Assembly: GCA_945889325.1 (NCBI GenBank)
Contig: CAMDBH010000001.1
Location: forward strand, 62,001-126,000
Reading direction: 5' to 3'
Source of the DNA: Klebsiella pneumoniae
GTDB taxonomy: Bacteria; Myxococcota_A; UBA9042
Length of the DNA stretch: 64,000 nucleotides
Shown: one piece after another, positions 30,327 through 33,597 of the stretch
Position numbering within the stretch: the first letter of the stretch is position 1
Layout of the letters: every line of letters begins with the position of its first letter
Translations under genes and position numbers: made by a program
The notes under the pieces: generated by a model
Told to the model about the DNA's origin: nothing
Databases searched by the model: none
The model's input: only the letters and a program-made list of their open reading frames with translations

Positions 30327-30527
30327 ATGCTGCTGACGCTGACGACGTTTAGTTTTGCCCTCGCCGTTTTGATTTTAGCTTTACATTTCAAAGGCAAGCG
30401 CTGGGATGAATACGTAGTGGGCTTTTTTGCGGTGTTTTTGATCACGTGGCTGGTCACCTTGGGTTTGACCAATTCCTTGGGGGTTTTTCCGGCGATTCGC
30501 ATCGAAAGTTGGTTCGGTGTGCCGTGA
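30327..30527 (+). CDS. Small membrane protein (66 aa)
   Basis: Two predicted TM segments; stop codon coincides with start of repeat copy 2. Confidence 0.5.
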   Translation: MLLTLTTFSFALAVLILALHFKGKRWDEYVVGFFAVFLITWLVTLGLTNSLGVFPAIRIESWFGVP

Positions 30528-30725
30528 GAGCGTGTGAAAAATCCTTTTTTCACGCTCTCGATTGGGGTCTGGTATTGGCAATTTCTGCCAATCGACCAAA
30601 AGTGGGCTCGGACTCAAATTTCTGATTCCAGTAATATCATTATATTACGGAGCGTCCATGCAGAAACTGCTAATACCTGACCTCGCTCAGAAGCTGTGAA
30701 ATGAATATTTCACGGCCTCTGAGCG
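30525..30725. repeat. Three-hairpin intergenic repeat, copy 2
   Basis: Core 30564-30684; about 5 differences from copy 1 by eye over 121 bp. Confidence 0.9.
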
Positions 30726-30753
30726 CGTGTGAAAAAACTTTTTCACCGCTCTC
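30721..30753. terminator. Additional left-end-type hairpin abutting copy 2
   Basis: GAGCGcgtGTGAAAA-AAC-TTTTCACCGCTC. Confidence 0.5.
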
Positions 30754-30776
30754 AAATGGTGCGCTTTTTGCTGCGG

Positions 30777-31289
30777 TCAGCGCTGTTGATCGAGCAGTTT
30801 TTGCACGTCGCGCAGCGTCGGATCAAAATTCGCGTCATCGCGCAGACTTCGCATGATCACATGGCCTTGACTGTCGATCAACACATTCATGGCCACGGGT
30901 AACGGCGCATCTGGGGCAAAGTCGTTGGGCAAAAAGCGCCGCAACGCGCTGCCGTCGGCGTCGAGCAAGGTCGGAACGGCGACGCCGAGCTCGCGGGCAA
31001 AAGCAGCCAAGTCGGCCGGATCTTCGCCCACGCCGACAAACCAGACCGCCAATTTTTGCGCCGCAAACTGTTTGCGCAACGGTTCCAAGCGCGGAACCTC
31101 CGCGCGACAATGGCTTCACCAACTGGCCCCAAAGTGGATCAGCAGCGGATGACCGCGCTCCTGCGCGATCGTGTGGCTTTGTCCTTGCAAATCGGTCAAT
31201 TCCAGCGCTGGTGCGACTTGGACCGGACCTCGCTGCGGCGCCGAACACGCAAGCGCGAACAGAAACACCAAGTGAGACCAGCTACGCAA
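30777..31289 (-). CDS. Candidate selenoprotein: TlpA/thioredoxin-like lipoprotein with in-frame UGA at active site (U-S-H-C)
   Basis: TTG start with SD GGAGGT; lipobox FALAC; ...HPLLIHFGASW-[UGA]-SHCRAEVPRLEPLRKQFAAQKLAVWFVGVGEDPADL...; UGA at 31116-31118; track ORFs 31116-31337 and 30777-31088 are in the same frame; SECIS-like hairpin at 31089-31105. Confidence 0.75.
31089..31105 (-). promoter_or_regulatory. Candidate bacterial SECIS element
   Basis: On the coding strand GCGCGG-AGGTT-CCGCGC; perfect 6-bp stem, G-rich apical loop, 16 nt between UGA and loop. Confidence 0.65.
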
Positions 31290-33597
31290 GACCCCACCTC
31301 CGGCGCAACGCCCATTCAAGACCGAGCAACAACACAAGCCAAATCAACACTTCGGGACGACTCCACAAATCGAGATGGGTTTTTTCGGCCAACTCGGGCG
31401 GATCGCTTTGCGGCAGCGGCACGCCGCCTTTGGGCACCGCCAGATTAAAAACCTGGCCACCGCTCGCCTTGGCCAATTGCTGCAGCAAACGATCGCTTGG
31501 CTGCAACTGGCTCATTTCCAAAAGGGCAGGCAAGCGAACCACCGGCGCCGTCGCGCGCAGCACGCGACCGTCCAGCGCGCCCTCGACAGTGAGCAAGTAG
31601 GCACCCGGCGCACCCGGCGGCAGCGTCAGCACGGCCTGACCATCAACATCTGTTGTGTCAGCCATGGGTTGCAACGTGCGCGCTTCCGCGGCGACCTGCA
31701 CTAGCGGCGCGAGATCAAAACGCAGAGTCAAGTTAGCCAGCGGTTTGCCGCCGGGACTGCGGCCGGTGATTTTTATTTTCAAAGGTTCGCTCGCCGCCTG
31801 CGGCTCACTGGGCGCCTGCAGACGCAGCAAATCCAAATCGGGATCGCGCAGCAGCCAAGCGCTCAGCTGATCGAGTAGCTGATGGTAATCACTTCGGCTT
31901 TTGTCGCGGATGTTGTCCGCCGCCCCCGGTGGAAACGCCCACTGCCACAAGGAATCTGTCGCCAGCACGGCGCTGCGGCCCTCGCCGACTTCGCCGACCG
32001 CCAAGATCGGGTGATCGCGGTCATCGGTGAGCAAGACGCTGCCCTGCTCGCCCGCCTGCAACCCTGTATTGCGCCCGGTAAACGTGTGTTTGGCCCACTG
32101 TGCGGCGTTGATTTCAACCTCTGAACCCAACAAGGTGACGGGGTGCAGTAAGCCGGCGGGCGTGAGTTTTGCGGTCAACGGGCCATCGACAAAGCCGACA
32201 TCATCGGCCACCAACGGCTGCAGGCGAACAGGCAACCAATCAGCAATACCGGTGCCAAAATAGCCACCTGCGCTCAACGTCTGCTTGCCACCGAGCACCA
32301 AAAATGCACCGCCCCCCAACACATAAGCGCGCAATTGCGGCAGGTACTGCTCCACGGCAAAGGGACCAAACGGAAAGTCTTGAAAAATCACCAGATCAAA
32401 GCTCGAAAGCGATTGCTCAAAGATTTCTCGGGTCGGAAATGGAATCAGCGTGGTGTCTTCGGCGGCGGCAAACACGCCAGAGCCTTGGCCGATCATGACG
32501 TAAAAGCTAACCAAATCGACCGCTTCGTTGCCGCGCAAATGCATGCGCAAAAAGCGCGTGTCCCAGGACGGATGGCCCGCCAGATGCAAAACACGTGTGC
32601 GATCGCGGACAACGCGCAGGCCAGCCCAAGCCTCGTTGTTGGTTGTGGTCGCTTCATCGGGCAGAGGCAGGACCGCCGCTTGCAGCAAGTGCGCTCCGAC
32701 ATGCTGGGGGGAGAATTCCATTTGAATTGTACGCAGTTGTGGGCCATCGAGTGCCAACTTCTGCACAGCGACCTGATGGCCGTTGTCGCTGAGTTTCAGC
32801 GTAAATTCACCAGAATGCTTGGCATATCCGCTGATTTCTACATCGACGGCGACTGGCATGGCCGTGCGGGTAAATCCGAACGAACTGCAACGCACTGTGG
32901 CGACGGCCACATCGGCAATGGGCGCATCGTCTGCCACAAAGAAGCTGTGAATTGGCATATGTAGCGCCTGAACCAACTGAGCGCTGTCCGTGTCCAGCGC
33001 CGCACCAGCTGTGCCATTGCGCGCGCGCAGAGCGGCATTGTCTAAACCATCGGATATCAACACCACGCCCGATAGACGCTGCTGGCGTTGGGCCTCGGCG
33101 AGCGCGGATAAACCCGCAAGCAAATCAGTAGCCTGGCCAATGGGCTTGAGCGCGGTGAGTTTGTTGAGCTCCGGCAGCGCCTGCAAATGATCATCGAGCG
33201 AAAAAAGCAGCGCAGGTTGCGTTCGGGAAAGCGAGGCGGCCAGCGACACGGCGCGCTCCCACCGCGACGGGCCTTTGGTGGTGCTTTTTTGTGCCATCGA
33301 CAGCGATTGATCGACGACAATGGCGATTCGCCGCCCGCCGGGACGCACGCTTTCGCTCACCCAGGTCGGCTGATGCCAAACGGCCAAAACGCTTATCACC
33401 GTGAGCAGCCGCAAACCGATAAGCGCCGTGCGCTTGCGTTTGGATTTGAGCGCGCGCAGGTTGATCGCAGCCAGCACAAGCACGAGCAAACCGAGCGTTA
33501 ACGCAAGGATCCGCGGCCATAGCGACCAGCCGAGCGTCCACTCAAGGTGATCGCTCTCCAGCACTTGCGCGAGCACCAACGGCAGGTCAGGGCGCAT
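31282..33597 (-). CDS. Membrane protein with VWA and glutamine-amidotransferase-like region
   Basis: RRIAIVVDQSLSMAQ (MIDAS-like), LSGVVLISDGLDN, AYVLGGGAFLVLGGKQTLSAGGYFGTG; TM at both ends. Confidence 0.8.
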   Translation of the reverse strand: MRPDLPLVLAQVLESDHLEWTLGWSLWPRILALTLGLLVLVLAAINLRALKSKRKRTALIGLRLLTVISVLAVWHQPTWVSESVRPGGRRIAIVVDQSLSMAQKSTTKGPSRWERAVSLAASLSRTQPALLFSLDDHLQALPELNKLTALKPIGQATDLLAGLSALAEAQRQQRLSGVVLISDGLDNAALRARNGTAGAALDTDSAQLVQALHMPIHSFFVADDAPIADVAVATVRCSSFGFTRTAMPVAVDVEISGYAKHSGEFTLKLSDNGHQVAVQKLALDGPQLRTIQMEFSPQHVGAHLLQAAVLPLPDEATTTNNEAWAGLRVVRDRTRVLHLAGHPSWDTRFLRMHLRGNEAVDLVSFYVMIGQGSGVFAAAEDTTLIPFPTREIFEQSLSSFDLVIFQDFPFGPFAVEQYLPQLRAYVLGGGAFLVLGGKQTLSAGGYFGTGIADWLPVRLQPLVADDVGFVDGPLTAKLTPAGLLHPVTLLGSEVEINAAQWAKHTFTGRNTGLQAGEQGSVLLTDDRDHPILAVGEVGEGRSAVLATDSLWQWAFPPGAADNIRDKSRSDYHQLLDQLSAWLLRDPDLDLLRLQAPSEPQAASEPLKIKITGRSPGGKPLANLTLRFDLAPLVQVAAEARTLQPMADTTDVDGQAVLTLPPGAPGAYLLTVEGALDGRVLRATAPVVRLPALLEMSQLQPSDRLLQQLAKASGGQVFNLAVPKGGVPLPQSDPPELAEKTHLDLWSRPEVLIWLVLLLGLEWALRRRWGLA

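Follow-up and report, generated by a model that had tools for sequence, protein, structure and literature searches.

The question raised by this locus is whether the hairpin directly 3′ of an in-frame UGA is a SECIS element that directs selenocysteine insertion, or a GC-rich hairpin of the kind that can arise by chance. To answer it, we consider in turn the gene that carries the UGA, the hairpin itself, the alternative folds of the same RNA, the selenoprotein genes of relatives, and the selenocysteine machinery of the genome. By the window we mean the whole 64-kb stretch of DNA that was analyzed. Table 1 collects the features.

Table 1. Features of the candidate selenoprotein locus, in window coordinates.
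Feature	Position	Strand	Basis
Candidate selenoprotein gene, 170 codons + stop	30777..31289	-	sequence reading and homology
In-frame UGA, first Cys position of CxxC (UxxC)	31116..31118	-	homolog alignment
Shine-Dalgarno-like GGAGG, 7 nt 5′ of TTG start	31297..31301	-	direct sequence reading
Proposed SECIS hairpin: GCGCGG (31105-31100), loop AGGUU (31099-31095), CCGCGC (31094-31089)	31089..31105	-	
Longer fold GCGCGG-A-GGUUCC-[GCGCUU]-GGAACC-G-UUGCGC, -21.0 kcal/mol	31074..31105	-	folding prediction

The gene and its in-frame UGA

The candidate gene starts at a TTG (31289-31287) and its terminal stop is itself a UGA (30779-30777). It is the last in the order DUF4159 gene, VWA-domain gene, selenoprotein gene, and it overlaps the end of the VWA-domain gene, within whose 3′ end the GGAGG sits. 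With the internal UGA read as U, the encoded product begins MRSWSHLVFLFALAC|SAPQRG...GASW-U-SHCRAEVPRLE..., in which a lipoprotein-type signal and a lipobox (like the start codon, read directly from the sequence) are followed by a TlpA/ResA thioredoxin-fold domain; PF00578 and PF08534 both match above their cut-offs. The predicted product is an exported TlpA/ResA-like thioredoxin-fold lipoprotein with the active site GASW-U-SHC.

In an alignment with some 45 Cys homologs, the residue encoded by the UGA is the first redox Cys of CxxC, and a distant relative in the class (L029 in G036) has a UGA at the equivalent residue. What we observe is what characterizes a TlpA/ResA-like UxxC protein: a thioredoxin fold, an in-frame UGA where CxxC has its first Cys, and the existence of Cys homologs. 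The reading frame 3′ of the UGA is undamaged, homology runs on both sides of it, and the codon bias in the same frame is 0.24 bits per codon before the UGA and 0.56 after. Within the window, this is the sole UGA that combines two-sided coding bias with a hairpin of the template described below.

Could the UGA be a true stop, with a shorter protein starting at an internal TTG (31088)? A mechanical ORF does exist from that TTG, but its product would contain neither of the redox residues, nor the fold's first strands, and both homology and the signal peptide lie upstream of it, which makes this highly improbable. We give still less credence to a general reassignment of UGA in the organism. Nothing favors it except the in-frame UGA itself, whereas the gene ends in a UGA, SelA, SelB and SelD are present, and none of the genome's other PF00578 genes shows an internal UGA. 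The corrected gene model matters in practice, as standard callers would either truncate the gene at the UGA or start it at the internal TTG.

The stretch that separates the candidate gene from the genes convergent to it on the CAAX-protease side (30525-30760) contains recurring short inverted sequences, among them GAGAGCGTGTGAAAAA...TTTTTTCACGCTCTC; these are possibly terminators or members of a small repeat family.

The short hairpin and its chance rate

The sequence and coordinates of the hairpin given by the original prediction are exact when read on the minus strand, where a 10-nt spacer AGCCAUUGUC (31115-31106) separates the UGA from the stem. The 6-bp stem is perfect and grows to 7 bp if the A and U of the loop close, leaving a loop GGU.

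The published bSECIS model allows a loop of 3-9 nt, a stem of 4-16 bp, a spacing of 16-37 nt, and an energy at or below -7.5 kcal/mol, with a G in the first two positions of a loop that mostly has the form N1-G[G|U]N-N2, N1 and N2 pairing (PMC13188914). The hairpin at 31105-31089 agrees on every count: the distance from UGA to loop is 16 nt, which the original prediction had correctly placed within the bacterial range; the structure has 6 bp with a 5-nt loop, or 7 bp with a 3-nt loop; the loop A-GGU-U has the N1-G[G|U]N-N2 form; and within the first 33-42 nt the energy is -12.1 kcal/mol as drawn with 6 bp, and -12.8 kcal/mol with the seventh pair.

How often would such a hairpin appear by chance? 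The original prediction had warned that GC-rich hairpins can, and the warning was justified. Of the 1657 UGAs in the window, 36 (2.2%) are followed by a template hairpin with 6 bp or more. When codons are resampled with the protein held fixed, a hairpin of at least 6 bp occurs in 5.2% of the resamplings and one of at least 7 bp, the observed length, in 1.8%, while the 30-nt folding energy is equalled in 1.45%. Given these rates, the hairpin taken alone is only mildly better than chance. An Rfam scan of the hairpin site returned chance matches only.

A competing longer fold

Folding the 45 nt after the UGA had been proposed as a check, and the result is divided. The predicted minimum-energy fold is the short hairpin up to 42 nt, but at 45 nt and beyond it is the longer fold of Table 1, and the two structures are mutually exclusive. 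The UGA could encode Sec with the longer hairpin (loop 23 nt after the UGA) as the working SECIS, or the two folds could exchange as ribosomes pass, and the short hairpin would then be part of the story only. The longer fold is the minimum-energy structure of 45-70 nt, its energy is reached by 1.2% of codon resamplings, and its spacing, its stem, and the G in its loop are within loose bSECIS limits. Nevertheless, only 3-9 of its 12 base pairs are preserved in the relatives examined, and its loop GCGCUU does not have the usual G[G|U] pattern, whereas the loops of the relatives are of GGU/GUU/GUC type at +17 to +22. For these two reasons we prefer the short hairpin, and we consider a working role for the longer fold unlikely. 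The short hairpin would also be expected to form first as the RNA emerges.

Comparison with selenoprotein genes of relatives

The lineage is rich in selenoproteins, encoded by AhpC/TSA-type and formate dehydrogenase genes of the relatives. From such genes in class-level relatives we sampled 30 UGA sites (leaving out the formate dehydrogenase site L131, which had been extracted in a wrong frame), and used as template a stem of 6 bp or more with a loop of 3-6 nt matching N?G[G/U] and starting 16-23 nt after the UGA. The template hairpin is found at 29 of the 30 UGA sites and at 0 of 48 Cys homologs, a contrast that still stands despite two reservations: the template was picked once the relatives' sites and the window had been inspected, and numerous sites are orthologous to one another. 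A Fisher p-value for the template therefore overstates the case. The original prediction took the hairpin as independent structural support for recoding; the support is there once the relatives are considered, but the hairpin alone proves little.

This comparison also bears on the possibility of a fresh nonsense mutation, or a sequencing or assembly error, through which an original Cys codon, TGC or TGT, became TGA, leaving a Cys protein or a young pseudogene beside a chance hairpin. TGA is one base away from either codon, no selC and no UGA ortholog were found, and the chance rate of the hairpin alone is 2-5%. Such an event would, however, have to coincide with a template hairpin that none of the 48 Cys homologs has, in a genome where SelA, SelB and SelD are intact and in a gene whose frame 3′ of the UGA is undamaged. 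We find it improbable.

The exact register of the window (stem +11 to +16, loop +17) is found at nine of these sites, eight of them in TxxU peroxiredoxins and the ninth in a WUPYC protein. In the ten same-register sequences all six stem pairs form in each, four of them via two-sided changes; pairs were counted on ungapped sequences anchored at the UGA, because MAFFT introduced gaps into the SECIS set. All the compensatory changes seen are between selenoprotein genes that share the register and are either paralogous or unrelated. A search for UGA orthologs in the genome contigs, 90 relatives and 52 class genomes returned distant homologs only and no close UGA-bearing ortholog, and for this reason there is no covariation within orthologs.

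The formate dehydrogenases of relatives have a loop GGUCU at +19. A second register in the class is observed in WUPxC peroxiredoxin-like selenoproteins (L110, L111, L116, L118), whose SECIS loop is at +22.

Taken together, the selenoprotein genes suggest that the SECIS layout is rather uniform among unrelated families in this class, with the stem starting at about +11 and a loop of the G[G/U] type between +17 and +22. Such a uniform layout could aid the detection of further selenoprotein genes in the class.

Selenocysteine machinery and selC

Does the organism decode selenocysteine? The selA, selB and selD genes expected of a Sec-decoding organism are all encoded elsewhere in the same genome, and their products score above the curated cut-offs (SelA 470 bits, SelD 373 bits, SelB 274 bits). 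SelB is intact, with its GTPase, beta-barrel and winged-helix domains.

The tRNA gene selC was not found in the assembly, which is 84.4% complete. With the Rfam model the best match (44.5 bits) is a tRNA-Ser, and with a covariance model built on the selC genes of 16 relatives the best score is 36.5 bits; the latter model scores 94-108 bits on two of its own source relatives. All 21 same-family relatives have selC, which in several of them is flanked by an ABC permease gene and a NUDIX gene. Both of these genes are present here, and a synteny check found no selC in the gap between them. In G002 and G008, selC is flanked by other neighbors, so it may lie elsewhere in the present genome too. We infer that selC lies in a portion of the genome that is missing from the assembly. 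It is very unlikely that selA, selB, selD and the UGA redox gene with its SECIS were kept while the canonical selC was truly lost or replaced, with an unrecognised tRNA serving the UGA or the Sec trait in the middle of being lost.

Two side observations concern selC. The permease-NUDIX gap (L144, G000:C4:59500-66500, about 2534-2763) contains what looks like a repeat, with inverted ends (AGAGGGTGTATTCAAA...TTTGAATACGCGCTCT). No tRNA-Sec was found either in two class relatives, G031 (L116) and G038 (L110), whose AhpC/TSA-type genes have their UGA at WUPxC.

No second selenoprotein was found in the genome among the two families searched, PF00578 and the molybdopterin oxidoreductases. The only PF00578 gene with an internal UGA is the candidate, and the single molybdopterin oxidoreductase match has no UGA; in relatives this family includes UGA-bearing formate dehydrogenases.

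The most probable reading

We conclude that the hairpin at 31105-31089 is probably a bacterial SECIS that directs Sec insertion at the UGA of a TlpA/ResA-like lipoprotein. Four lines of sequence comparison make this interpretation, already that of the original prediction, likely: the alignment of the UGA with the first Cys of CxxC, the presence of SelA, SelB and SelD, the template shared by the relatives' hairpins, and the agreement with the bSECIS rules. The evidence against it is that selC is undetected, also in the permease-NUDIX gap where several relatives have it, that a longer fold takes over at 45 nt or more, that no close UGA ortholog was found, and that the two families searched yielded no second selenoprotein in this genome.

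If the short hairpin is the SECIS, SelB carrying Sec-tRNA(Sec) and GTP would use the winged-helix domains at its C-terminus to bind it when the ribosome arrives at the UGA. Selenocysteine would then be placed as the first residue of the UxxC redox motif of an exported thioredoxin-fold lipoprotein. For this gene we would expect that SelB binds, that the UGA is read through, and that the protein contains Sec and has a thiol-disulfide redox role.

Relation to known selenoproteins

The prototype of the consensus bSECIS type is E. coli fdhF, in which the hairpin is likewise inside the coding sequence and directly 3′ of the UGA. The 6-7 bp stem, the small A-GGU-U loop, and the 16-nt spacing all agree with that type; the present locus differs in having a longer competing fold, and the sequence is otherwise unrelated. 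The loop AGGUU resembles the fdhF loop, AGGUCU.

Within the class, the register is shared with the SECIS of the TxxU peroxiredoxins (PF00578; L113, L115, L117, L119, L120, L123, L124, L125), with a stem at +11 to +16, a loop from +17, and the second arm at +22 to +27. These belong to another protein subfamily with a different redox motif (TxxU), their loop is GGUUC as opposed to AGGUU here, and their stem sequence differs from that of the window through compensatory changes. The TlpA-like WUPVC selenoproteins (L029 in G036, L114 in G043) have their UGA at the equivalent aligned residue and the hairpin GUCCG-AGGUCU-CGGAC with the loop at +17; at about 26-32% identity they are distant homologs and not orthologs.

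Finally, the candidate can be compared with published UxxC families, among which are listed a Prx-like thiol:disulfide oxidoreductase (PF00578), a thiol-disulfide isomerase-like protein (cd02966), and a redoxin family protein (PF08534) (PMC1088965, PMC13188914). They share with it the thioredoxin fold and the UxxC motif, and their Cys homologs are widespread (PMC1088965, PMC13188914). Unlike them, the candidate sequence falls below the cut-off of every NCBIfam selenoprotein model. Since the loop fits the bSECIS model and UxxC families are already listed, the case belongs to a known kind of selenoprotein. It is very probably ordinary bacterial selenocysteine recoding, a well-known mechanism to which this locus adds one further gene.
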